From a virus: DNA of 26,397 nucleotides. The notes below the pieces were generated by a model. The model worked only from the letters and a program-made list of their open reading frames with translations. It had not been told where the DNA came from and made no database searches. Shown here piece by piece: positions 4,506-18,715 of this stretch (positions are counted from its first letter, which is position 1; each line of letters begins with the position of its first letter). The stretch covers positions 10,082 through 36,478 of IMG/VR virus record IMGVR_UViG_3300030202_003956; one strand, given 5' to 3'. A program made the position numbers and the translations under genes.

Positions 4506-4524
4506 TATAAATAACGTATAAATA
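4506..4524 (+). promoter_or_regulatory. Tandem T4-type late promoters of the tail-spike gene
   Basis: TATAAATA occurs at 4506-4513 and again at 4517-4524. The second continues as TATAAATATTATT, close to the extended T4 late consensus, and ends 5 nt before the ATG at 4530. The expected start of transcription is therefore the A of ATG. No Shine-Dalgarno sequence is present. Confidence 0.8.
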
Positions 4525-7292: not shown

Positions 7293-8063
7293 TTAAACTC
7301 TTAAGGCTTTATCCCAGAGTAGTAAATGTAATCGTGACGAAAAATTAACATGTAGTTGCTTAGCATATTCAGCTACAACTTCTGCCTTCTCAATATGCTC
7401 TTCCCGTGATCCACAACACGGCATCAACCAAATTCTATTAAGAGGTATATTAACTCCTTCACTATCGTCTACATATTTTCGCCATACCTCTTCAATATCT
7501 TCTGATGTTTGAATAACAAACTTAAAGCCTGACCCATTCTCTTTATGCCATTTAAGTGTTTCTGGCTTATATGTTCTACTCTCTGGATCACCGTTTGTCG
7601 TAAGTTTAGGCGATGTAGTAAAAGTTGCATTGTATTTATCTACCCACTCCTGCTTAGGAGTCATTGTAGCATTAGTCTCAAAATCAATACGTGGAGTAAA
7701 TTTATACTTATCAATAAATGCTTCAGTAAATTTAAGTAATTGTTTTTGACGCACCATAGGTTCACCACCAGTATATTTAAAGATTGCACCAGCTTTTAAA
7801 TGATCAACAAATTTATTACGTTCTAATAATTCAAATAACTCATTAAATGTAAGTTTATTCTTTTGAGACCAAGAGATAAACGAATCACATCCATATGGAG
7901 CATCTTCTGATATAAAACCTTTACATGTTAGATTGCAGCCGAATAATCTAAGAAAGACAGAAGGATAACCTACATATTCACCTTCACCTTCAACTGTATA
8001 GAACACCTCCGGTTCTTGATTCTCGCCAGCGAGTAACAAATATTCTTTATCACAATCTATCAT
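7293..8063 (-). CDS. queE: 7-carboxy-7-deazaguanine synthase (QueE-like radical SAM enzyme)
   Basis: QueE converts 6-carboxy-tetrahydropterin to 7-carboxy-7-deazaguanine using SAM and a 4Fe-4S cluster. The chosen start (8063) gives 256 residues; an in-frame ATG at 8093 would add ten hydrophobic residues of doubtful value. Visible motifs are F-Y-T-V-E-G-E-G (21-28), the QueE N-terminal signature; Cys43, Cys47 and Cys59 for the cluster; and Y-T-G-G-E-P (97-102), the radical-SAM GGE motif. The cysteine spacing is CX3CX11C instead of the common CX3CX2C, with a small insertion before the last Cys-Asp pair. With FolE2 and QueD in the same window it forms a 7-deazaguanine route. Confidence 0.85.
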   Translation of the reverse strand: MIDCDKEYLLLAGENQEPEVFYTVEGEGEYVGYPSVFLRLFGCNLTCKGFISEDAPYGCDSFISWSQKNKLTFNELFELLERNKFVDHLKAGAIFKYTGGEPMVRQKQLLKFTEAFIDKYKFTPRIDFETNATMTPKQEWVDKYNATFTTSPKLTTNGDPESRTYKPETLKWHKENGSGFKFVIQTSEDIEEVWRKYVDDSEGVNIPLNRIWLMPCCGSREEHIEKAEVVAEYAKQLHVNFSSRLHLLLWDKALRV

Positions 8064-8101
8064 ATATATTATAATATAACGTATACATTTCAATATTCAA
8101 G

Positions 8102-8861: not shown

Positions 8862-9298
8862 TCTAGTTGAATAAACTGCTCAAGATCAAACCCTTCAGCA
8901 ACTTCAATTACATTCCATCGACCATCAGAATCTAGTCGGAATGAACCTATATACTTATGGCTCCATTCCGCTGGTGATATTAATGATAATCTCATACTAT
9001 CAGATATTTCATATAGATAGTAAGTTTCACCTAAGATAGGTTCAAAATTATAGTGTGCTTCGTAAACTAACTTATTCCAATTAAATTCATCAACAATACT
9101 CTCATACTGCTCACGTAATTCTTTAAGCTGTTGCCTTAAAGCTTTTTGTACTTTAGAAGCACCTCGAGACTTAAATGATGTGAGATCGTTAGGTACAATA
9201 CATGGACTAAGTGTTGATCTTGGATAGGGTAAGTAGTTAGACTTTTTACTATCGCCCTCCACTGTATAATTAATTATTAGCCCATGACGTACCAGCAA
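8858..9298 (-). CDS. DUF2452-family protein
   Basis: The 146-residue protein contains Y-P-R-S-T-L-S-P-C-I-V-P-N-D, then a helical K-A-L-R-Q-Q-L-K-E-L-R-E-Q-Y-E segment, then F-E-P-I-L-G-E-T-Y-Y-L-Y and a closing L-S-L-I-S-P-A-E-W with I-G-S-F-R-L. I recognise this order as DUF2452, a small family of unknown function found in phages, bacteria and eukaryotes. The listed ATG overlaps the queD end by 29 nt. A GTG at 9262, 7 nt after the queD stop, is an alternative start and would keep all conserved blocks. The tail overlaps the convergent phoH stop at TTAA. No function can be assigned. Confidence 0.75.
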   Translation of the reverse strand: MLVRHGLIINYTVEGDSKKSNYLPYPRSTLSPCIVPNDLTSFKSRGASKVQKALRQQLKELREQYESIVDEFNWNKLVYEAHYNFEPILGETYYLYEISDSMRLSLISPAEWSHKYIGSFRLDSDGRWNVIEVAEGFDLEQFIQLD

Positions 9299-9908
9299 AC
9301 CAGTTAGATTTACCTTGTGTAACCTTATTACCTACCTGCGCCGGTATTTTATTATCCTTAGGAGCAATATCTGCATCTACCTTAGCCTTAATAGGTGCTG
9401 GTGTCTTTTCTTTTAAAGCATCTCTTATAGCATCACCTGTAGTTTCATCAACAACCCGAGCATACGTAGCTGAATTATCTTCATGTTCGTATACTTCAAC
9501 CTTATCTACCCAACACCTTCCTTCACTTCTACTATTAACAAAATCATTTGCGTCATTATAAACAACCTCTGCTACTTTTTCAATACCAACACCATCTTCA
9601 AATACCCTTAATTGAATTAGACCCAATTTATCTAAGTTTTTAAATGTTTCTAATTCCGGATCATCTGCAGCGACAGTAGTTGTATGATCAAACTTATCAT
9701 TTAGATGTGTCTTGAGATCTTTTAGAGCACCAAAATCTACTACCCAGTTTTTATCATCTAGACTATTACTACCGAACCATAATTTAGCTTTAAGCTGATA
9801 GCCATGTAGATATTTACAATGCGAATGATCAGCTTTCCATTGTCTAAAAGCCGTACTACCTAATTCTAACATCTTAGTACTCTGCCACTTACTAGTAAAA
9901 TTTTCCAT
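9270..9908 (-). CDS. queD: 6-carboxy-tetrahydropterin synthase (QueD-like)
   Basis: QueD makes 6-carboxy-tetrahydropterin from dihydroneopterin triphosphate, the step before QueE. The 212-residue protein shows F-R-Q-W-K-A-D-H-S-H-C-K-Y-L-H-G-Y at 21-37. His28, His30 and His35 are zinc-ligand candidates and Cys31 is in the position of the catalytic cysteine. W-V-V-D-F-G follows at 55-60 and F-D-H-T at 73-76, with the catalytic Asp-His pair. The usual HGH is HGY, as I recall for a FRQW-type QueD-like group. The C-terminal 50 residues (A/P/K-rich, ending W-F-A-G-T-S-W-A-N-N) extend beyond the family domain. A sigma70-like promoter sits directly upstream. Confidence 0.82.
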   Translation of the reverse strand: MENFTSKWQSTKMLELGSTAFRQWKADHSHCKYLHGYQLKAKLWFGSNSLDDKNWVVDFGALKDLKTHLNDKFDHTTTVAADDPELETFKNLDKLGLIQLRVFEDGVGIEKVAEVVYNDANDFVNSRSEGRCWVDKVEVYEHEDNSATYARVVDETTGDAIRDALKEKTPAPIKAKVDADIAPKDNKIPAQVGNKVTQGKSNWFAGTSWANN

Positions 9909-10067: not shown

Positions 10068-11003
10068 CTAACTCTTCTTGCTGAAATCGATCTTGTCGAA
10101 ATTATCTCTAAAGTTATCATCAGCTGATGGTTTTTTCTTTTTAGGTTTTAATTTTTTTGCGCGTGAGTTTTTAATTATATCTTTTTGAGATTGTTGATCA
10201 GCTTGAATTATAGTGGTGGCGCCGGTATTTTGTGTCATATCAGGCCCTTGCATAGTAATCGACGTGCCGGGATCAGAGCCTGAGTTTGGAGATTTCGGCC
10301 GTTTCGGTCGACGACCTCCACCCTTTCCTGATTTTGGGTTTGGTAGTGGCCTTGAGACTCCCCCTGGTTTTGGCTTTGGTTTTGGCTTTGGCTTTGGTTT
10401 TGGCTTTGCTCCTGGCGTTGGCTTTGCTCCTGGTTTTGGGTTTGGCAGTGATATTGAGCCTCCTGGCTTTGCTCCTGGTTTTGGGTTTGGTAGTGGCCTT
10501 GAGACTCCTCCTGGTTTTGGGTTTGGTAGTGGCTTTGAGACTCCTCCTGGTTTTGGAGCTTGGCCACCTTTTGAGCCTGAGCCCTTGCCAGGTTCTGGAT
10601 CCGGAGTAGCATTACCAGGGTTTATTATACCTGCCTGTTCTCCCGGTGTAAGAGTTATTTCCTCGAAGTTATCACCGTCTAGTCTATAAAATTTAGTTTC
10701 ACCATCAGCAACTTCAGCTGCCCATGTATTGGACTTTTTATCATGGTGTGTAATATTAAATGTATCTATATTCGGGTCAGCTTTTAACTTACTATCTAAT
10801 TTTGCAAATAATTCTTCTTCAGGTGTTAAAGCTCGAACAACGTCTGAAACTACACCAGAAGTAACCGGGGCTGCATCCCTTGCAACAGCTTTTGCCGCTC
10901 CTAAAGCAGCTTTACCGGCGGTAGATGCAGCAGTTTTTGCCGCTCCTATTAGTGCTGATCCAAAGCCTTCACGTAGTAGTTCCTTCTGTGACATTTTTTT
11001 CAT
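10068..11003 (-). CDS. Pro/Lys/Gly-repeat protein with Ala-rich N-terminus, probably virion-associated
   Basis: A 311-residue protein of unknown function. It starts M-K-K-M-S-Q-K-E-L-L-R-E-G-F-G, followed by an Ala/Gly-rich helix-like stretch (16-50) and a compact domain (about 60-125) ending near Y-R-L-D-G-D-N-F-E-E-I. Residues about 130-235 are low-complexity repeats built on P-G-G-V-S-R-P-L-P-N-P-K and K-P-K-P. The C-terminus is basic, with a K-K-L-K-P-K-K-K-K-P cluster. L-R-E followed by Gly fits the loose consensus of T4 gp21 prohead-protease sites. A late-type promoter upstream also suggests a late structural or internal protein. Long open frames on the opposite strand here are compositional shadows. 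Confidence 0.65.
   Translation of the reverse strand: MKKMSQKELLREGFGSALIGAAKTAASTAGKAALGAAKAVARDAAPVTSGVVSDVVRALTPEEELFAKLDSKLKADPNIDTFNITHHDKKSNTWAAEVADGETKFYRLDGDNFEEITLTPGEQAGIINPGNATPDPEPGKGSGSKGGQAPKPGGVSKPLPNPKPGGVSRPLPNPKPGAKPGGSISLPNPKPGAKPTPGAKPKPKPKPKPKPKPGGVSRPLPNPKSGKGGGRRPKRPKSPNSGSDPGTSITMQGPDMTQNTGATTIIQADQQSQKDIIKNSRAKKLKPKKKKPSADDNFRDNFDKIDFSKKS
10332..10550. repeat. 36-bp tandem repeat region encoding PGGVSRPLPNPK units
   Basis: Near-identical 36-bp units lie at 10332-10367, 10479-10514 and 10515-10550, with a degenerate copy from 10434. Between them is a run of short GGYTTT-type units that encodes (KP)n on the minus strand. The repeat is in frame with the coding sequence and could vary in copy number. 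Confidence 0.85.
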
Positions 11004-11062: not shown

Positions 11063-12106
11063 ATGGTTAAGAATGATAATGGTTACGAATGGCTAGGTGA
11101 GGATGATGAACTTACCGGTGAGAAGGATATTGTTGCAAGAGAAATAATGGGAGAAGAATATAGTAAGAGCTACTTTCCTCCTACAAGAATCTATGATGAT
11201 AATATCAAAGCTGATAAGAAATATATATCTTCGTTACCTGATCTACAAAATGGTCCTTCTAGCTTAATTCAAGGAGCTGCTGTACCTATTCAACAGGTAG
11301 GTATTCATAACTTTAAATTACCCTTAACATATAAAAAGAGAAATGGTAAAACTATAGAACTTGAAACTAGTGTAACTGGTAGTGTAAGTTTAGAGGCACA
11401 TAAAAAAGGTATTAATATGTCACGTATTATGAGAAGTTTTTATGATCATAAAGACGAGACGTTTAGTATGGATAAGATTAAAGATGTTTTAGAGACATAT
11501 AGAAATAATCTTAAATGCTTTGATTCACGTATAATGCTTAAGATATCATATCCTATCAAGCAAAATAGTTTACGTAGTGGTCTAGAAGGATATCAATACT
11601 ATGATGTTGTCTTCGAAGGTGATTTGACTAAAGATGGTGAGTTTAAGAAGTATATTCATTTTGATTTTGTTTATTCATCAGCATGTCCTTGTAGTTTTGA
11701 ATTGAGTGAGCATGCAGAAAAATATCGTAATCGTGCTACTGTACCTCATAGTCAAAGAAGCGTTGCTCGTGTAAGTGTTAAATTTGATGATATGCTTTGG
11801 ATTGAAGATATTCAAGAGTTATGCTTAGCTGCTCTACAGACTGAAACGCAAGTTATGGTTAAGAGAGAAGATGAGCAAGCGTTTGCAGAGAAGAATGGTG
11901 CTTACTTGAAGTTTGTTGAAGATGCAGTTAGATTACTTTATCAGAAGCTTACTAGTGAACCGCGTATTAAAGACTTTAAAATTGTAGCATCTCATAATGA
12001 AAGTCTGCATAGTCATAACGCTGTATCAGTTATTGTTAAAGGTATAGAAGGTGGCTTTACTGCTGGTGTTACAAGAGATGTTTTTGAATCTACTGGTTTG
12101 AGATAG
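11063..12106 (+). CDS. folE2: GTP cyclohydrolase IB (FolE2)
   Basis: FolE2 converts GTP to dihydroneopterin triphosphate, the shared first step of folate and 7-deazaguanine synthesis. The 347-residue protein has the family blocks in order: [13 protein letters not shown] (53-65), [17 protein letters not shown] (about 113-119), the metal-site segment A-C-P-C-S-F-E-L (about 207-214), P-H-S-Q-R-S, and [10 protein letters not shown] near the C-terminus. The N-terminal 50 residues are acidic and variable. As type IB it can use metals other than zinc. It supplies QueD and QueE encoded within 4 kb. A sigma70-like promoter suggests early or middle expression. Confidence 0.92.
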
Positions 12107-12139: not shown

Positions 12140-12673
12140 ATGAATATTTTCGTAACCGATGATGATCCAATTGTCGCTGCTAGAAATCTATGTGATCAGC
12201 ATGTTAGAAGTAAAATGCAGATTGAAGGTGCTATTATGCTAGCGCATGCATTTGATCAGGAAGTTCTTAATCATCCAGATACACCGAGAACATCTACCGG
12301 TAAACCTAGAAAGAGTGGTAAGGGATATGCTAAACATCAATGCTCAAAATGGGCAAGAGAATCGAAGGATAACTTTGAATGGTTAGTAGATCATACTTTA
12401 GAAATGTTTACAGAAAGGATGCATCGATGGCCGGAGTCAAAAGAGCATTATACAAAAACGTTCATTCAATGGTGTAAGGATAATATTGATAAAACATCAA
12501 TAGATAAGATACCTCAAACACCTTATGTGGTAGCTATTAGCGAGGTAAGCGAATGTAGAAAGGTCGTAAAAGATTTTAATAAACTACCAGTTATTGAGCA
12601 GTATAAGCATTATATCAAAATTGATAAAACCTTCGCAACATGGACGAAGCGTGATAAGCCATATTGGTATTAG
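12140..12673 (+). CDS. Conserved phage protein, possibly endonuclease V-like
   Basis: The 177-residue protein opens with N-I-F-V-T-D-D-D-P-I-V-A-A-R-N-L-C-D-Q-H-V. A central H-Q-C-S-K-W-A-R-E-S and W-L-V-D-H-T-L-E-M segment follows, and it ends K-T-F-A-T-W-T-K-R-D-K-P-Y-W-Y. I recognise this as a phage family with distant resemblance to pyrimidine-dimer DNA glycosylase (T4 DenV: an N-terminal L-A-D-Q-H segment and an aromatic-rich C-terminus). If so it would repair UV damage, but the catalytic N-terminus is not clearly conserved and the call is tentative. It follows folE2 by 33 nt on the same strand, and its stop overlaps that of the convergent nucleotidyltransferase gene by 4 nt. Confidence 0.55.
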   Translation: MNIFVTDDDPIVAARNLCDQHVRSKMQIEGAIMLAHAFDQEVLNHPDTPRTSTGKPRKSGKGYAKHQCSKWARESKDNFEWLVDHTLEMFTERMHRWPESKEHYTKTFIQWCKDNIDKTSIDKIPQTPYVVAISEVSECRKVVKDFNKLPVIEQYKHYIKIDKTFATWTKRDKPYWY

Positions 12674-13398
12674 TCTGTATATTGGTTATCATATAGTAAA
12701 TTAGCAACATCAATAAGTTTCTCTATATAACCAGAGTTTCTTAGCTCTTTAAATGCTAAATTACCAATACCAAACTCACCAGAAGCTGCAAGGGAGTCTT
12801 TTCGCATAGAAGATACTTTAGATCTTAATGCTGCAGCTATGCCAGTAAGTTCTGCTAACTCTGCAGGTGAATTAATTGATCGTGCTGCTGTTTCGAGTTC
12901 ATCAATATGCCCTTTAACACTACCAGCTTTACGCTGAACGTCGTTCTCATCGATTGTCGGTGGGTCATACGTTGGCACTGTAATCCACTCATCTTTAAGA
13001 AGAGAAAATAGACCAGATGCTACATGCGGATCCTCCATATCTTGGAAGTATAATTCAACATCATGACCACCTATGCTAATATTATGACGCAAATTCCAAA
13101 TGAATCTTTTACCGTCTAATGCAGCTCGTACTAAATCTTCATCTGAGTTTATATCTGCAAAGTCTAATAATATATGTACATCTAAATCGGAATATTTAGT
13201 ATAGTTGTAGTTAGCCATTGAGCCAGTTAATTGTACATCTTGCACTTCACCTGCAACACCAGCCTTATCAGCGACATCTGCTGCAATCTTTAAAAGTTTG
13301 TCACGTACTTCAGGATCAAACTTATCATCGTCCCAAAAACGTTCTGGTAAAGTATCATTATACCAGTTACTCTCATAGAATAATTTAAAATTAATCAT
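12670..13398 (-). CDS. Polymerase-beta-type nucleotidyltransferase with capsid-targeting-like N-terminus
   Basis: In this 242-residue protein residues 1-10, M-I-N-F-K-L-F-Y-E-S, resemble the N-terminal peptide shared by neighbouring genes. The catalytic pattern of the polymerase-beta nucleotidyltransferase superfamily is visible: G59-S60, then Y-S-D71-L-D73-V-H, with the third acidic residue in H-D113-V-E115-L-Y-F. The C-terminal third is helical. Such enzymes add nucleotides to nucleic acids, proteins or small molecules; the target is not predictable here. The start overlaps the preceding gene by 8 nt, so it is probably coupled in the operon that starts at the late promoter at 14269-14276. 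Packaging into the capsid is inference. Confidence 0.75.
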   Translation of the reverse strand: MINFKLFYESNWYNDTLPERFWDDDKFDPEVRDKLLKIAADVADKAGVAGEVQDVQLTGSMANYNYTKYSDLDVHILLDFADINSDEDLVRAALDGKRFIWNLRHNISIGGHDVELYFQDMEDPHVASGLFSLLKDEWITVPTYDPPTIDENDVQRKAGSVKGHIDELETAARSINSPAELAELTGIAAALRSKVSSMRKDSLAASGEFGIGNLAFKELRNSGYIEKLIDVANLLYDNQYTD

Positions 13399-13834
13399 AC
13401 TCTACTTCTAAATTTTTACCAGCAATATCTTCAGCTGTTACATCAATAAGTGCATTAAGTTTCTTCTCGATAAAATCTTTACCCACTAAAATCTTGTAGA
13501 GGTTTGTAGATCTATTACCTATGGAAAAAGGTATTTTGAGATGTTCTTTGTCTCCAATTTTAATATCAAACTCTACTACAGGTCTATGCTCTATATTACC
13601 AGCTCCAACGTTAATAGAAACTTCACCTTTCTTATCCTTTAGTAAAGTTTTACCGTTAACTGTTCTAAAGAATACCTTATTACCTTGTTCTTGTATGTCT
13701 TCTCCATGGAGTACATTATATGCACCGTTACCAGAATCAAGCTTCGCCGGTATCTTACCGACACCGTCTAAATCAAAAAACTCTATTAGTCCGAGCACGG
13801 CTCTTTCTTCGAAAAATTGTCTAAACTTTTGCAT
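13391..13834 (-). CDS. Retropepsin-like (RimK-associated protease family) protein
   Basis: The 147-residue protein starts M-Q-K-F-R-Q-F-F-E-E, again the shared N-terminal pattern. Residues 27-36, K-I-P-A-K-L-D33-S-G-N, match the DTG-like motif of retropepsin-fold proteins, especially the family annotated as ATP-dependent zinc protease/RimK C-terminal (I-P-A-K-x-D-T-G-A). Near the C-terminus I-L-V-G-K-D-F-I is the matching second conserved strand (I-L-x-G-R-D-F). The fold call is fairly firm; protease activity is not proven for this family. It lies 12 nt downstream of the 13847-14263 gene and overlaps the nucleotidyltransferase by 8 nt. Confidence 0.68.
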   Translation of the reverse strand: MQKFRQFFEERAVLGLIEFFDLDGVGKIPAKLDSGNGAYNVLHGEDIQEQGNKVFFRTVNGKTLLKDKKGEVSINVGAGNIEHRPVVEFDIKIGDKEHLKIPFSIGNRSTNLYKILVGKDFIEKKLNALIDVTAEDIAGKNLEVEYD

Positions 13835-13846
13835 AATAAATTACTA

Positions 13847-14263
13847 TTAATAACTTTCTTCGTAATCTTCATGACCTGCATTAAAGTGACTATCGGGAGA
13901 ACCATGATCATCCTTATTTTCATCATAATCTAGCCAATGATATACAGATGATAAGTAATCAGATGCTTTAGTAATCTTTGATGCAGTCCATCCTTTTAAA
14001 CCAGTTGATGATTTAATAATATCCTCTATCTTACTAGCATAATCCTTTGTTTTTCTTAGCTGAGCTAATGCCATATGTATTTCAGAAGAATCATGCTCTT
14101 TATGCGAACATTCATCATCACCGCAACACCCTTGATCTGAATGATGGTCAGTATTATCACCGGTATCGATACCTAAGACAACTTCATCTTGACCTGGCAC
14201 TGGTATAGTCATATAAGCTTCAGAAAGCAAATCTCTATCTTTACTCCAATTGTTATGCTGCAT
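13847..14263 (-). CDS. Conserved acidic phage protein with His/Cys-rich linker
   Basis: A 138-residue protein of unknown function. The N-terminus holds D-L-L-S-E-A-Y, where L-S-E followed by Ala fits the T4 prohead-protease consensus. Residues about 35-60 are rich in Asp, His and Cys (D-H-H, G-C-C-G-D-D-E-C-S-H) and could bind metal. The C-terminal half has L-K-G-W-T-A-S-K-I-T-K-A-S-D-Y-L-S-S-V, a segment I recognise from many phage proteins of unassigned function. It is the first gene of a three-gene late operon, with the promoter ending 5 nt before ATG. Confidence 0.7.
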   Translation of the reverse strand: MQHNNWSKDRDLLSEAYMTIPVPGQDEVVLGIDTGDNTDHHSDQGCCGDDECSHKEHDSSEIHMALAQLRKTKDYASKIEDIIKSSTGLKGWTASKITKASDYLSSVYHWLDYDENKDDHGSPDSHFNAGHEDYEESY

Positions 14264-14268
14264 AACAA

Positions 14269-14276
14269 TATTTATG
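14269..14276 (-). promoter_or_regulatory. T4-type late promoter (CATAAATA)
   Basis: On the minus strand CATAAATA is followed by TTGTT and then ATG at 14263. The 5-nt gap is the same as at the tail-spike gene and predicts a leaderless message. Confidence 0.7.
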
Positions 14277-14292
14277 CTAAACTACACCATTC

Positions 14293-15132
14293 CTACCATT
14301 TTTTACAAGACCAGTATCTTGCTTTTGTTTTCGGTCCTGGATTATCGCAGTTATGTCTAGCTCTAAATGATTTACGAGCTTTAGGATTACTCTTACGTAT
14401 TTTCATCGTCTTTTCACCCCTTCTTTTTGCAGAGGTACCACCATGCCCAAAATTAACTTTCCTTATATTACCAGTTTTTGGATCTTTAACATAAACCTTA
14501 AACTTCTTAACATCCCCTCTTGTAGGTTTATTAAGAGTTACTTTACGACCACGATATTCTGCATCTTCTTCTGGTAGCCCACGACCCGGGTGATCTAATA
14601 TTTCTTTTATATCTTTAGCATGTACATCAGAAATACCTTCTGGCGTAAAATATTTAACAGCTTTATCTATATCTGTATTGATAAGCTCTCTAGTAGCAGT
14701 ACCTGATATACCTTCTGACTGTAGAGGGATTTTAATTACATTTACTAATGGATATTTATCGATATTTCTACTAAAATAATCATACCGCTTCATATCTTCA
14801 TCTTTATCACCAGCACCTACAATTATATTAGATTCTTTATTATTTTCTGCAAACTCATAAACAGATCGAACTGGTGTAACATCTGCGACTGTAATATCGA
14901 TAGGTTTATTTAAATACTTAGAATATATCTCCCATACAGCTTTTGCCTGATCAGCAGTAATACCATCTCGTTCTTTACGGCCGATTACCACTACACCTTT
15001 ATCAGCATCATCTAACAAATACTTAAGAGCTTGGAAATGACCTTTAGTAGGAGGTTTAAATCCTCCAGGTAATAACGCGATTGTATCTGCTGCTGTTTCT
15101 TGTTGTTCGAAATATTCTTTAAATGTTCTCAT
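14293..15132 (-). CDS. HxGH-type nucleotidyltransferase (cytidylyltransferase/NMNAT-like) with C-terminal Cys motif
   Basis: The 279-residue protein begins M-R-T-F-K-E-Y-F-E-Q, the shared N-terminal pattern. It then has L-L-P-G-G-F-K-P-P-T-K-G-H (20-32), the (H/T)xGH nucleotide-binding motif of cytidylyl- and NMN adenylyltransferases, and G-I-S-G-T-A-T-R-E-L, matching the ISGTxxR motif of that superfamily. The substrate could be NMN, a phosphosugar or a phosphoalcohol; nothing visible decides it. A separate basic C-terminal part (about 200-279) ends C-D-N-P-G-P-K-T-K-A-R-Y-W-S-C-K-K-W, a tail I recognise in other T4-like phage proteins. The gene has a strong Shine-Dalgarno site, unlike most genes here. 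Confidence 0.82.
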   Translation of the reverse strand: MRTFKEYFEQQETAADTIALLPGGFKPPTKGHFQALKYLLDDADKGVVVIGRKERDGITADQAKAVWEIYSKYLNKPIDITVADVTPVRSVYEFAENNKESNIIVGAGDKDEDMKRYDYFSRNIDKYPLVNVIKIPLQSEGISGTATRELINTDIDKAVKYFTPEGISDVHAKDIKEILDHPGRGLPEEDAEYRGRKVTLNKPTRGDVKKFKVYVKDPKTGNIRKVNFGHGGTSAKRRGEKTMKIRKSNPKARKSFRARHNCDNPGPKTKARYWSCKKW

Positions 15133-15134
15133 AA

Positions 15135-15632
15135 TTACTCCTCCATACTGTTAGGGTACCAATCTGGTAAAGGCGCTTCTTGTATTCTATTAGCATACTC
15201 TTTTTTAGCTATCTCAAAATCAGTTGAAACTTTACCATCAACCATATCTCTTACAAAACCTAATGTAGCTGCATTAGCATACAGGTCACCACATCTTGCA
15301 GTAACCTCTTTCTTAAGACCGTCATATATAATACTACCTGTAACGTATCCTAACGTATCAAGCATATCAGCAGGTACATCAATAATCATAGTTGAATATA
15401 CATAATCTCTATGCGGTGCAGGAAACTCATGTGGTATACTCTCATCTTTAATATAGACTGATTCGAAAGGTGGTTCAATATTATTCCAAAGTAGCATATT
15501 CTCAGTTACTTCATCAGGCTCGCCAAACTTATTAATAAGATTCACAGCATAACTTTTTGCATCATCATGCTCCCAACCTCTGAGTGAGTCTACTGCTCTA
15601 TTTTCTTTAAAATATTCTTTAAATAATTTCAT
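15135..15632 (-). CDS. Conserved phage protein with capsid-targeting-like N-terminus
   Basis: A 165-residue protein of unknown function. It starts M-K-L-F-K-E-Y-F-K-E-N. The core has S-V-Y-I-K-D-E-S-I-P-H-E-F-P-A-P-H-R-D-Y-V, then T-G-S-I-I-Y-D-G-L-K-K-E-V-T-A-R-C-G-D and A-N-A-A-T-L-G-F. These are sharply conserved-looking blocks with His, Asp, Glu and Cys that suggest an enzyme, but I do not recognise the fold. Its ATG overlaps the upstream stop (ATGA), and its stop is 2 nt before the next ATG, so it is embedded in the operon. Confidence 0.7.
   Translation of the reverse strand: MKLFKEYFKENRAVDSLRGWEHDDAKSYAVNLINKFGEPDEVTENMLLWNNIEPPFESVYIKDESIPHEFPAPHRDYVYSTMIIDVPADMLDTLGYVTGSIIYDGLKKEVTARCGDLYANAATLGFVRDMVDGKVSTDFEIAKKEYANRIQEAPLPDWYPNSMEE
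15138..15144 (-). promoter_or_regulatory. Strong Shine-Dalgarno site for the HxGH nucleotidyltransferase
   Basis: GGAGGAG on the minus strand lies 5 nt before the ATG at 15132, inside the last codons of the upstream gene. It supports the chosen start and stands out because most first genes in this window have no Shine-Dalgarno site. Confidence 0.7.
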
Positions 15633-16843
15633 TTTTTTGTACTTGTTTGTCCTCCACTAAAGTTAGCCCTACTGAATTCTAATCTATCTACTAATTTAAC
15701 TGCGTCTCCTGCTTTAGATACACTTACGTACCCTTCAGGGGATGTTACTTTTAACGTACCATCCTCTGCATCGAGGAAATGCTTTGTACTATATACAGCA
15801 TTGTTATATTTATTAATAAAAATTTGCTTTGCTTGTGAGAGTAATTTACTAACTTTAAGTATATTAACAATGCTATCTTTCTGCCCTTTAAACTCAGCTA
15901 TTTTCTTCTTGAAACTCTCTTCAACCTTTACCTTCCCGGCTTTAGATTTTCTTTTATCTATCTCTTTAGCCATCCGGCCCTTAAACCACTCTACGAAATT
16001 GTTATATGAATTTTCTGGATCTTCAAGAAATGTACCTCTCTGTATTTCTGAGTTAGCATAAATGTTTAGAAGATCTAACGGTAAATCTTTATAGTTAATT
16101 TTTACTGAATCAGCTGTTTTAACTAGATCTCTAATTTGTTTAGCTTCATCCTTAGTAAGTGTTACAGTTCCAGTAGCATCAGTAAATACCGCATCATCTA
16201 CCCAAACACCTGGGATCTTTTTAAGACCTCTAACGTTAATACCGTATTGCGGTGAGCTATTAAGATCATCATACCCTGTATGGAAGACTATACCAAATAC
16301 TGAATTAGCAATTTCTTGACCCAACTTCGAATCTGCTTCAACTGCATATTTAATAGTATTGGGTTTAAATATATAATGTGTTACACCATCAATGTTTACC
16401 TTACCTACAGATGATGAATCAAACATAAAGTCACCTTGAAGTATACCTTTGATACCTAATTTGGGTAGATACTTAAGAGCCTTCTTAAGTTTATCTGCTA
16501 ACCCAGGAGCATGCCCATGATTCATTTCTACATCATTATCAGTATAGTTAATCTTTGGCTCTTTATTAAATATAGATTTTGTGCCGACAAAGAATTTACC
16601 GGTATCAGGGTGTTTACCAGCAAAAATAGCAGGTGCACCATCCCACTTAACTGAAGTATTAACCTTACGTTTACTTTTACCTTGTAAGTGTGAAAGTAAA
16701 TCTGTGATAAAGCCTCTAGCTGTATTGTATCCCTTCTCTCCCTTAGTTAGAACCAATTCTTCTAAGTGTGTGAGGTGTGTATTAGCTTTAGTAGCTTCTT
16801 CTATGAGCTTATATTGCTCGAAATATAGTTTAAAGTTTTTCAT
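15629..16843 (-). CDS. DUF6267-like protein with KxDG ligase-type motif and capsid-targeting-like N-terminus
   Basis: Starting at the ATG at 16843, the protein has 404 residues and begins M-K-N-F-K-L-Y-F-E-Q. An ATG at 16924 would add 27 residues overlapping the upstream gene and hide this N-terminus, so I reject it. The core resembles covalent nucleotidyltransferases (DNA/RNA ligase fold). V-K66-W-D-G-A-P is motif I with the candidate nucleotidylated Lys, I-L-Q-G-D-F-M-F-D (134-142) resembles motifs III/IV, and F-K-P-N-T-I-K-Y (159-166) may be a later motif. I believe the family corresponds to DUF6267 of T4-like phages. The C-terminal 150 residues are Lys-rich and helical. Ligase activity is not shown. 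Confidence 0.72.
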   Translation of the reverse strand: MKNFKLYFEQYKLIEEATKANTHLTHLEELVLTKGEKGYNTARGFITDLLSHLQGKSKRKVNTSVKWDGAPAIFAGKHPDTGKFFVGTKSIFNKEPKINYTDNDVEMNHGHAPGLADKLKKALKYLPKLGIKGILQGDFMFDSSSVGKVNIDGVTHYIFKPNTIKYAVEADSKLGQEIANSVFGIVFHTGYDDLNSSPQYGINVRGLKKIPGVWVDDAVFTDATGTVTLTKDEAKQIRDLVKTADSVKINYKDLPLDLLNIYANSEIQRGTFLEDPENSYNNFVEWFKGRMAKEIDKRKSKAGKVKVEESFKKKIAEFKGQKDSIVNILKVSKLLSQAKQIFINKYNNAVYSTKHFLDAEDGTLKVTSPEGYVSVSKAGDAVKLVDRLEFSRANFSGGQTSTKK

Positions 16844-16856
16844 ATCAGTTAATTTA

Positions 16857-18005
16857 TTATTCACTTGGGGCCTGCTCATCAGGTATATTTCCAATTTTTG
16901 GAGCACCAACACTAGGGTATACATTCAAGGAAGTTATCGTACCGGCACTTAAGGCGCCACCATTTATATATGCAGATATATCCTCTTTAACAAAGATAAT
17001 ATATTGTCCGAAATTTGCTGTAGGTGTCTTTACCTCGGATCCCGCCTTTTTAGAGGTTCCGGTATTAACGAATATAAAATAAGAAACTTTTTCTTTATTA
17101 GCGTAATTCATATAATAGCATGTTTCTAGATATTTTCTTACTGTATCTAAATCACTAAAATCAATCCCACTACCACAATCTGCATCACTGTAGTTACTTT
17201 TAACAAACTCATCTACCGCATCTTTTAGAACTTTATCTTCAGTACCTAACCGTTTTAAATTAAATATTGTTTCTGCTATATTATATTTTAAACCTCCTTT
17301 AGTAGGTCTACCTTCAAATTTTGCAGCAACTGCCAGTTGACCTAATTTTGTCTGTTCAAACCCTGCAACTGCTACATCTCTTCCCCCTAGTCTAGCTTTA
17401 CTACCTTTCACTTCTAGATAGGCTCCATTAAGACTGAGATCTCCATGATCGTCACGATCTGATACGTCCTTAAATATGGTGGCTAGCCCTAACTCGCATT
17501 GACCTACACCTCTACCACCTTCTATACCTTCAAACTGCATTAGCTCAACAATTACACTTTTAGGGATATCATATTGTTCTAGGTCTTTTGAAATTTTATC
17601 AATCAGATTACCAGACTTTCTCATAGATGTAAATTCTAATGGTGATTTAATATATTTTACAAAATTACCAGCAACTCCATTTGTTTGTAAAATATTAGTT
17701 ATACCTTTAATGGCGTCCTTATCAGTTAAGGTTTTTTCTGTTATATTTTTACTGTAGAGGTATTCTTTTATAACCGGTACTGAGACTCGAGCATCTAAAT
17801 ACTGATTTAAATATAAAATATCATCTGCCGCTAAATACCCAGTTTTACCAATACTAACGACTTTTGCAGCTAAATTTTCTACTGCATTTTTATCGGATGA
17901 CTCCTCAACCTCTTCACCGAAAATATTTAAATGTCTACGCGGGGAAACCTCTTTACTAGCTACTTCACCATACAAATCTGCTAAACTTCTACTACCATAA
18001 TTCAT
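16857..18005 (-). CDS. Putative PD-(D/E)XK-type nuclease-like phage protein
   Basis: The 382-residue protein starts N-Y-G-S-R-S-L-A-D-L-Y-G-E-V, different from its neighbours. An N-terminal region (1-150) is helical and of unknown role. The middle shows G-V-G-Q-C-E171-L-G, then D-D-H-G-D189-L-S-L, then A-Y-L-E198-V-K200-G-S-K. The order Glu ... Asp ... Glu-x-Lys is that of PD-(D/E)XK nucleases, where these residues bind metal and activate water. The function is inferred from this motif alone. The ATG overlaps the upstream stop (ATGA), so it belongs to the operon from the late promoter at 18334-18341. Processing at L-Y-G-E by a prohead protease is possible but unproven. Confidence 0.6.
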   Translation of the reverse strand: MNYGSRSLADLYGEVASKEVSPRRHLNIFGEEVEESSDKNAVENLAAKVVSIGKTGYLAADDILYLNQYLDARVSVPVIKEYLYSKNITEKTLTDKDAIKGITNILQTNGVAGNFVKYIKSPLEFTSMRKSGNLIDKISKDLEQYDIPKSVIVELMQFEGIEGGRGVGQCELGLATIFKDVSDRDDHGDLSLNGAYLEVKGSKARLGGRDVAVAGFEQTKLGQLAVAAKFEGRPTKGGLKYNIAETIFNLKRLGTEDKVLKDAVDEFVKSNYSDADCGSGIDFSDLDTVRKYLETCYYMNYANKEKVSYFIFVNTGTSKKAGSEVKTPTANFGQYIIFVKEDISAYINGGALSAGTITSLNVYPSVGAPKIGNIPDEQAPSE

Positions 18006-18328
18006 GATTCAATATCAGTAATCTTATCTAATGATTGTTCAGTATCAACAGGGCTTATTTCTAGAAAATTTTCGATAGTTTCGACTACATCTTTAGGGTT
18101 ACCTTCTAACATTGTAGCTTGCAATTCTCTAGCAATCTTAGCTTCACTATCATCTGCTGTATGTAAAAAAGCTTTAACCACTAATCCAATTAAATATTTT
18201 TCTCCTTCAGCAGTAAGAGGTGTAGGCGCTTCAGGCTGCTCTGTTACATCTGTTGCATCAGCTAAACCTAAATCCTCATCTTGTTCAAGTAAGGTTTTAT
18301 ACTTCTCTATTAATTGTAATGTTTTCAT
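18002..18328 (-). CDS. Small acidic late protein of unknown function
   Basis: A 108-residue protein beginning M-K-T-L-Q-L-I-E-K-Y-K-T-L-L-E-Q-D-E, partly like the neighbouring N-termini. A Pro/Thr/Glu-rich linker (about 27-40) leads to a helical C-terminal part with E-K-Y-L-I-G-L-V-V-K-A-F. No enzymatic motif is seen. L-L-E within the first 18 residues is a possible prohead-protease site. It is the first gene of the operon that includes the PD-(D/E)XK-like and KxDG proteins, with its late promoter 5 nt upstream of ATG. Confidence 0.65.
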   Translation of the reverse strand: MKTLQLIEKYKTLLEQDEDLGLADATDVTEQPEAPTPLTAEGEKYLIGLVVKAFLHTADDSEAKIARELQATMLEGNPKDVVETIENFLEISPVDTEQSLDKITDIES

Positions 18329-18333
18329 AATTT

Positions 18334-18341
18334 TATCTATA
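18334..18341 (-). promoter_or_regulatory. Late-promoter variant (TATAGATA)
   Basis: TATAGATA on the minus strand, followed by AAATT and ATG at 18328, differs from the consensus at one base and has the same 5-nt gap to ATG as other late genes here. Confidence 0.55.
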
Positions 18342-18702
18342 CTTTGTTAGCTACCGCTTTAACTTTCGCTGCAACTTTTTTATACATATCACCTAAAGCT
18401 CTCTCTAAAGTTTTCTTAGGATCTGATCGAAAAGAACGCCTTCTAGGATCTTTAACTAAGCTACCAGCTACTTCTAATGCATCAGTTTCTGCCGGTGACA
18501 ACACACCACTTTCATCCTCAGCCGGTACTTCAATATCCTCTCCCATTTCAATAATCTTTTTAATATTCATGAAGAGATCGTAAGCATACTCTGTACCGGA
18601 AAGATCTACCTTTGATACATCACCATCAGGCCCGCGTAATACTATTTCATACTTAGAATTACCTGGAGTGTTTTCCTCCACCAACTTAAGAAAGTTTTTC
18701 AT
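18337..18702 (-). CDS. Small late protein with capsid-targeting-like N-terminus
   Basis: A 121-residue protein starting M-K-N-F-L-K-L-V-E-E-N. The middle (Y-E-I-V-L-R-G-P-D-G-D-V, then E-Y-A-Y-D-L-F-M-N-I-K-K) may form a small alpha/beta domain. The C-terminus is strongly basic and Ala/Lys-rich (P-R-R-R-S-F-R-S, then Y-K-K-V-A-A-K-V-K-A-V-A-N-K-V), which would suit DNA contact inside a capsid. It has its own late promoter. No known family was recognised. Confidence 0.65.
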   Translation of the reverse strand: MKNFLKLVEENTPGNSKYEIVLRGPDGDVSKVDLSGTEYAYDLFMNIKKIIEMGEDIEVPAEDESGVLSPAETDALEVAGSLVKDPRRRSFRSDPKKTLERALGDMYKKVAAKVKAVANKV

Positions 18703-18707
18703 ACATA

Positions 18708-18715
18708 TATTTATG
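18708..18715 (-). promoter_or_regulatory. T4-type late promoter (CATAAATA)
   Basis: CATAAATA on the minus strand, then TATGT, then ATG at 18702; the gap is again 5 nt. The site covers the stop codon of the upstream gene. A full TATAAATA at 18734-18741 on the same strand, inside that gene, may be an additional start. Confidence 0.65.

Follow-up and report, generated by a model that had tools for sequence, protein, structure and literature searches.

Introduction

The closest described counterpart of the element considered here is the capsid-targeting sequence (CTS) of phage T4. In the T4 internal protein IPIII, targeting proceeds via residues 4 and 7 and processing via residues 8 and 10, and the CTS has been suggested as a general mechanism across T4-like phages (review, PMC9026906). 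The T4 internal proteins inhibit Type IV restriction enzymes (PMC12373910), and a signal-guided search for internal proteins has already been made in T-even phages, according to work cited in the same article. We found no paper in the open-access literature that describes a CTS-like signal in cyanophages or on metabolic enzymes. Here, we analyze a cluster of nine open reading frames (ORFs) on the minus strand of a 26,397-nucleotide stretch (the window; positions 10082 to 36478 of the 36,478-base IMG/VR contig IMGVR_UViG_3300030202_003956). The window comes from a marine T4-superfamily myovirus whose relatives encode a gp21-type protease and a gp23-like capsid gene. Several proteins of the cluster begin with the same short peptide, which is very probably a T4-type CTS that brings a set of enzymes into the prohead.

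Results

The nine ORFs span positions 12670 to 18702, with verified coordinates, and the majority overlap or adjoin. An earlier inspection of the letters and translations without database searches (the sequence-only reading) had noted that five of the nine start alike, and they do, with the pattern M-x-x-F-x-x-[FY]-[FY]-(x)-E (class I tag). The five are a nucleotidyltransferase-fold protein of 242 amino acids (aa) (12670 to 13398; start MINFKLFYES at 13398, tag MINFKLFYE at 13372 to 13398), a 147-aa retropepsin-like peptidase of the RimB/RloA kind (13391 to 13834; MQKFRQFFEE at 13805 to 13834), a 279-aa NMNAT/cytidylyltransferase-like enzyme (14293 to 15132; start MRTFKEYFEQ at 15132, tag MRTFKEYFE at 15106 to 15132), a 165-aa protein (15135 to 15632; MKLFKEYFKE at 15603 to 15632), and a 404-aa DUF6267 protein (15629 to 16843; start MKNFKLYFEQ at 16843). 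In the DUF6267 protein, the tag MKNFKLYFE is followed by LIEE before Ala, with the Glu at residue 16 (16796 to 16843). Also as claimed, the 121-aa protein (18337 to 18702) carries a close variant, MKNFLKLVEE (18673 to 18702), and the 108-aa protein (18002 to 18328) carries a partial tag, MKTLQLIEKYKTLLE (18284 to 18328), that starts MKTLQLIEKY. Relatives of the former (MSKFLELVEENNPEKD and MNKFLSIVEQNLPEKD) retain F4, L/I7, V8, and E9, and many orthologues of the latter have KTLxLFxKY followed by LxEAD, that is, a hydrophobic helix with an LxE site further along. For the remaining two genes, L-S-E-A and L-Y-G-E near the N terminus had been proposed as usable sites. The first holds up, in that LLSE before Ala in the 138-aa protein (13847 to 14263; site at 14219 to 14263) lies at an [LI]-[LI]-x-E position that recurs at the N terminus of many orthologues. 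The second, in the protein that we call p382 (16857 to 18005), is not conserved; the conserved leader of this gene ends in FGE, at residue 31.

The domains behind the tags are unrelated to each other, as the sequence-only reading had stated, and fall into separate BLAST clusters and different families. This bears on whether the shared start could be a remnant of common ancestry of the whole proteins, as among paralogues. The genes are adjacent and several are nucleotidyltransferase-like, as paralogy would have it, yet the separate families speak against it, as do orthologues elsewhere that are untagged (DUF6267 in cyanophages and the nucleotidyltransferase of contigs G001 and G002), and we consider common ancestry extremely improbable.

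The tag occurs at gene starts more often than expected by chance. We used three regular expressions: a first form, a slightly wider form, and an aromatic form that requires aromatic residues at positions 4 and 7. The 36.5-kb contig has 6 called genes with a match at the start, for which column shuffles expect 1.0 (maximum of 4 in 1000) and within-protein shuffles expect 0.16. Genes were called as longest ORFs, and the internal ATG of DUF6267 is thus a seventh match. Over five genomes (two long relatives, T4, S-SCSM1, and S-CREM2), the aromatic form was found at 15 of 1110 start methionines versus 4 of 4681 internal methionines (p=2.8e-8). About 80 related contigs held 192 matches, 188 of them near ORF starts, in five main and several minor families. 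A search of IMG/VR with the tag written as degenerate DNA gave 61 stretches; of the 62 matches, 60 stood at ORF starts, on many unrelated domains, adenylate kinase among them (PF00406, 1.6e-34), while two codon-scrambled versions gave 0 matches there. Across cellular genomes totaling 257 Gb, the DNA form matched 4 times and never where a gene could plausibly start: two matches were within long ORFs and two opened just 41 codons. Loose matches to UvsY (MELLQRYIKE, with L at position 4) and, in relatives, to the clamp loader gp44 (MIDFDKIWVE, with I7 and W8) were judged coincidental and are lost when aromatics are required. We searched for the motif on clearly early enzymes, which the earlier reading had named as evidence against it, and found none with the aromatic form.

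Further tagged proteins were noted in other contigs. In L068 (2858 to 3412), a 185-aa protein that starts with a class I tag (MKKFKEYYTEGLFN) has a DUF4112-like domain (8.9e-5) of hydrophobic character. A small tagged protein of L180 (4101 to 4418) has weak similarity to PARP/KptA ADP-ribosyltransferases, and a tagged protein of L155 (476 to 1105) has a HAD-like FDIDDTLF motif; both are candidates for delivered enzymes.

We collected orthologues by their domain alone, without using the tag; where there were several ATGs, preference went to a tagged ATG if one lay within 45 residues. The tag was kept in 48 of 48 peptidases, 53 of 55 NMNAT-like enzymes, 15 of 15 of the 165-aa proteins, and 11 of 11 nucleotidyltransferases with an ATG start, which gives 127 of 129 for the four families combined, all from near relatives. 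The DUF6267 proteins have the full tag in 41 of 80 cases; F4 and Y/F7 are nearly always retained, E9 is frequently lost, and E16, in a canonical [LI]-x-E site before Ala, is invariant among 24 sequences. Targeting (F4 and Y/F7) and processing (E16) thus look separated in this family. In all five families, F4 and F/Y7 are present in nearly all orthologues. The conserved residues vary synonymously in their codons (84 synonymous versus 0 nonsynonymous pair differences at F4 of the peptidase and 12 versus 0 at F7 of the nucleotidyltransferase), which argues that the peptide and not the RNA is under conservation. It also bears on a second possibility, that the N-terminal codons are kept for translation initiation on a nearly leaderless late mRNA. 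Late promoter-like elements do lie 6 to 13 nucleotides (nt) from some starts and the tag codons are AT-rich; against this, besides the synonymous variation, further late-promoter genes in the window have no tag. We regard this possibility as highly improbable.

The tag positions conserved here are the same as those used by IPIII, whose start, MKTYQEFIAE, had been given correctly and is shared by IPII. When we ran the motif over T4 as a control, it made six matches: IPII, IPIII, gp24, Alt, gp61.1, and e.6. IPII, IPIII, gp24, and Alt are known substrates of the gp21 protease. T4 gp61.1 is a 54-aa protein annotated as hypothetical (AF158101, 18966 to 19130, minus strand; loci L120 to L123) that starts MKTFKEFIKED; with this near-perfect CTS, it may be an unrecognized internal head protein. 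A gp21-type protease (PF03420) was found in 6 of 9 relative contigs, and in G001 its immediate neighborhood includes an ORF that resembles a scaffold gene, along with a capsid gene of the gp23 type. As to possible sites for such a protease, Glu 9/10 of the tag is conserved, with F/Y at P3; a canonical LxE before Ala is present in DUF6267 (E16) and, mostly as LGE, in p382.

Published virion lists of cyanophages allowed a comparison with virion content. The S-CREM2 virion proteome comprises 52 of 219 genes (PMC10665884). With the first window expression unchanged, six S-CREM2 proteins match, and five of these are in the virion list (P=0.003): a SAM hydrolase (MKDFDSFLEEF), an APH/ChoK-like kinase (MKRFDAFLTEE), a cytidylyltransferase (MKNFSSFLTEA), gp13, and gp136. 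All four matches to the aromatic form are in the list (P=0.003), the slightly wider expression remains enriched (p 0.009), and a very loose expression shows no enrichment (p 0.32). The virion protein gp12, annotated as Cas9, has RFASFMAEA slightly inside its N terminus, and gp156, an orthologue of the window nucleotidyltransferase, is in the virion proteome. The cytidylyltransferases detected in virions of S-SCSM1 and S-SZBM1 start MKSFLQFLKEA and MRFRQFIIEA (shifted by one residue), respectively, and those of six further cyanophages start with a peptide like MKKFSAFLTEA or with MKLFNQFFKEA. The cytidylyltransferase family T4-GC190 is also present in S-SM1 virions (PMC3037559). The kinase of S-CRM01, published as a virion protein, starts MISFDQFLSEK. 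A natural control comes from the cyanophage DUF6267 proteins: those of S-CREM2, S-SCSM1, and S-SZBM1 are untagged (MPNKHLEHPEDS and the like) and are in none of the three virion lists, while DUF6267 does carry a tag in the lineage of the window and in two contigs, L269 and L237. In HTVC008M, tag-like starts are weak and DUF6267 has no tag.

These lists also bear on a third possibility, that the peptide binds another partner (tail, baseplate, membrane) or acts in an enzyme complex of the lytic phase, so that the enzymes would do their work in the cell that makes the phage and not in the next host. An amphipathic helix is able to bind many things. Tagged cyanophage enzymes nevertheless occur in virions, the conserved residues are the head-targeting determinants of T4, and head proteins of T4 are among the matches to the pattern; we judge this possibility very unlikely.

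The gene in the p382 position, upstream of DUF6267, provides a second kind of leader. A tight regular expression for this class II leader gave 7 members only, while taking the gene upstream of DUF6267 gave 61 distinct proteins from 81 contigs, although a few of these proteins are fragments or belong to a different gene. The class II leader of the window protein is MNYGSRSLADLYGEVASKEVSPRRHLNIFGE (17913 to 18005). Mean column identity of 29 aligned p382 proteins is 20%. Within the leader, M1 and Y12 are invariant and L8, L26, and E31 are nearly so; within the core, G168, E171, G188, D189, E198, and K200 are invariant. When we aligned 30 members at the leader end, identity was 0.50 before the leader Glu versus 0.09 after it, P3 to P1 were mostly LGE, and the commonest P1' residue was Ala; these members were selected for a Glu at the leader end, and the independent evidence is the conservation of E31 (>=90%) in the 29-sequence alignment. 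The class II leader is 28 to 31 aa long and ends in LGE, with the pattern SLEDIYxxxVxGxIPPRxHLxVLGE.

An AlphaFold2 (AF2) model of p382 (predicted local distance difference test score of 84.6) has low confidence at residues 23 to 36 and is folded from about residue 39. The model places a helix at 171 to 177 and strands at 181 to 183, 190 to 192, and 195 to 200, and E171, D189, E198, and K200 form an E...D...ExK arrangement on this helix-strand-strand core. A Foldseek search of p382 against the PDB gave nothing significant, and we therefore call this hypervariable protein PD-(D/E)XK-like rather than a member of that group; its residues and modeled fold suggest that it may be a nuclease. A p382-core profile without the leader finds relatives with the class I tag (L170, 1.7e-35; L172, 5.9e-18; L138, 4.4e-16). 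The two leaders appear to be exchangeable modules, and because they are exchangeable on the p382 core, both would serve the same address. Together with the unrelated domains that carry the tag, this supports the proposal that the peptide is transferable.

Some observations weigh against the capsid-targeting function. Head genes are missing from the window contig, which is a fragment, and the orthologue counts are not independent, since the orthologues come from related phages. The first tag Glu has F/Y at P3 versus I/L for T4 gp21, and cleavage exactly there is uncertain. The authors of the S-CREM2 study allowed for low-level carry-over in CsCl preparations. Numerous S-CREM2 virion proteins are untagged (structural parts, gp156, and gp160), and the tag is therefore not the sole way in.

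The remaining features of the cluster concern its expression and the individual genes. A T4-type late promoter-like element, CATAAATA, heads the cluster on the minus strand (18708 to 18715) and also stands before the matching gene in G001 and G002; a second copy lies within the cluster (14269 to 14276), immediately upstream of the gene for the 138-aa protein. These elements indicate that the tagged cluster is probably expressed late. Elements of the form [TC]ATAAATA were seen at window positions 4517, 8102, 14276, and 18715, about 5 to 14 nt upstream of start codons, and because they are so near, late mRNAs may be nearly leaderless.

The nucleotidyltransferase has a weak match to PF01909 (E 0.001), a match to phrog_36119 (5e-38), and the signature GS...SDLDVHIL. 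In G001 and G002 (16.3 to 17.0 kb and 58.1 to 58.8 kb, respectively, minus strand), its orthologue has no N-terminal tag and carries tag-like MENFKTFFEYYQG and MENFKTFFEYFQG, including a Met, at the point where about 100 additional C-terminal residues join on; we read this junction as a probable fusion scar or internal start. The peptidase matches NF052264 RloA3 (1.9e-7) and PF05618 (2.7e-5), each under the curated cutoff, and PDB entry 9g58 (2e-5). The NMNAT-like enzyme matches phrog_395 (5e-4) and, weakly, PF01467, and has a phrog_7595 domain fused at its C terminus. This domain is separate in G001 (85929 to 86207), with 94.6% identity versus just 64% for the enzyme part, which suggests that the window gene is a mosaic or recent fusion. 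The 165-aa protein has no match in Pfam, PHROG, or NCBIfam. The DUF6267 protein (PF19782, 2.5e-95) starts at an internal ATG, at 16843, of an ORF listed from 16924, and relatives align from the 16843 ATG. Its AF2 model has low confidence for residues 1 to 24, and Foldseek gave no significant match for it. We take its KWDG stretch to resemble motif I of ligases and nucleotidyltransferases, with no support from the tools used. PADLOC gave nothing useful.

Elsewhere in the window, a 311-aa protein with proline/lysine/glycine repeats (10068 to 11003, minus strand) starts with MKKMSQKELLREGFGSALIGAAKTA; its N-terminal LLRE resembles the T4 gp24 start MAKINELLRES, and it is a further possible head protein. 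QueE-like, QueD-like, and FolE2-like genes, judged by eye, lie at 7293 to 8093, 9270 to 9908, and 11063 to 12106, and because they make a 7-deazaguanine pathway probable, DNA modification is possible.

Discussion

In the mechanism that we propose, the tag would fold into a short amphipathic helix and bind the prohead scaffold core through its aromatic side (F4, F/Y7, and F/Y/I8), and tagged enzymes made late would be enclosed as the shell assembles. A gp21-type prohead protease would then release the enzyme within the head by cleaving it behind the Glu of the tag or at an [LI]-x-E site further on, and the freed enzymes would remain with the DNA and most likely be ejected together with it. We infer these steps of scaffold binding, cleavage, and ejection by analogy to T4. 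Of the packaged and injected cargo foreseen by the sequence-only reading, packaging is supported by the motif and by the published virion lists of related phages rather than of the window phage, for which we infer it; injection into the host would be a reasonable extrapolation from T4.

With the tag as a capsid-targeting sequence, the nine late genes would make up what is chiefly an operon for cargo. The proposed cargo comprises the NMNAT-like enzyme, the retropepsin-like peptidase, the nucleotidyltransferase, DUF6267, the hypervariable PD-(D/E)XK-like protein, and the small proteins. Early takeover or counterdefense would be a fitting role for an NMNAT-like enzyme (NAD or nucleotide metabolism), for a RimB/RloA-like peptidase, for a nucleotidyltransferase, and for a protein that may be a nuclease. 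A broader idea, to which we give an even chance, is that marine T4-superfamily phages use an exchangeable address code with at least two leader types (the CTS-like helix and the class II leader), which loads a rotating set of unrelated enzymes into the head, including a hypervariable nuclease-like protein in which nothing but the leader and the catalytic residues is conserved. If true, the virion would inject a changing set of effectors that act against the DNA of hosts or competitors, and its whole payload could be listed from genomes.

A sequence rule of this kind predicts which proteins a T4-like virus carries to its next host, where earlier cases needed proteomics and left contamination open. 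With it, enzymes whose presence in cyanophage virions had been puzzling find an explanation, and the idea of capsid targeting, so far applied to a few Escherichia coli phages, reaches the abundant phages of the sea. The rule also brings into view a large group of delivered enzymes (for NAD metabolism, a peptidase, nucleotidyltransferases, kinases, and nuclease-like proteins), which are likely to work within minutes of the onset of infection and perhaps counter host defenses. The second leader and its payload are possibly new.

Three known systems resemble this one in part. The ejection proteins of the giant phages phiKZ and SPN3US have an N-terminal propeptide that is cut after Glu, with proposed inner-head targeting (PMC5694885), as we propose here; several of those propeptides exceed 100 residues, versus 28 to 31 for class II and about 10 for class I. 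The virion enzymes of cyanophages S-SCSM1, S-SZBM1, S-CREM2, and S-CRM01 are of the same kinds and have a CTS-like start wherever the N terminus was checked. The papers on those virions name no signal and leave contamination open, and the window lineage tags further enzymes, DUF6267 included. The T4 CTS of IPI, IPII, IPIII, and Alt (Mullaney and Black 1996, as cited in PMC9026906) occupies about 10 N-terminal residues, as here. The T4 signal and the window tag have in common aromatics at 4 and 7, a hydrophobic residue at 8, Glu at 9/10, unrelated carriers, a late-type promoter, and a gp21-type protease (here in relatives). They differ in cargo: that of T4 consists of small basic proteins or inhibitors of Type IV restriction, that of the window of enzymes. 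Unlike T4, the window set also has a longer leader of a second type, as well as LxE sites deeper in the proteins.

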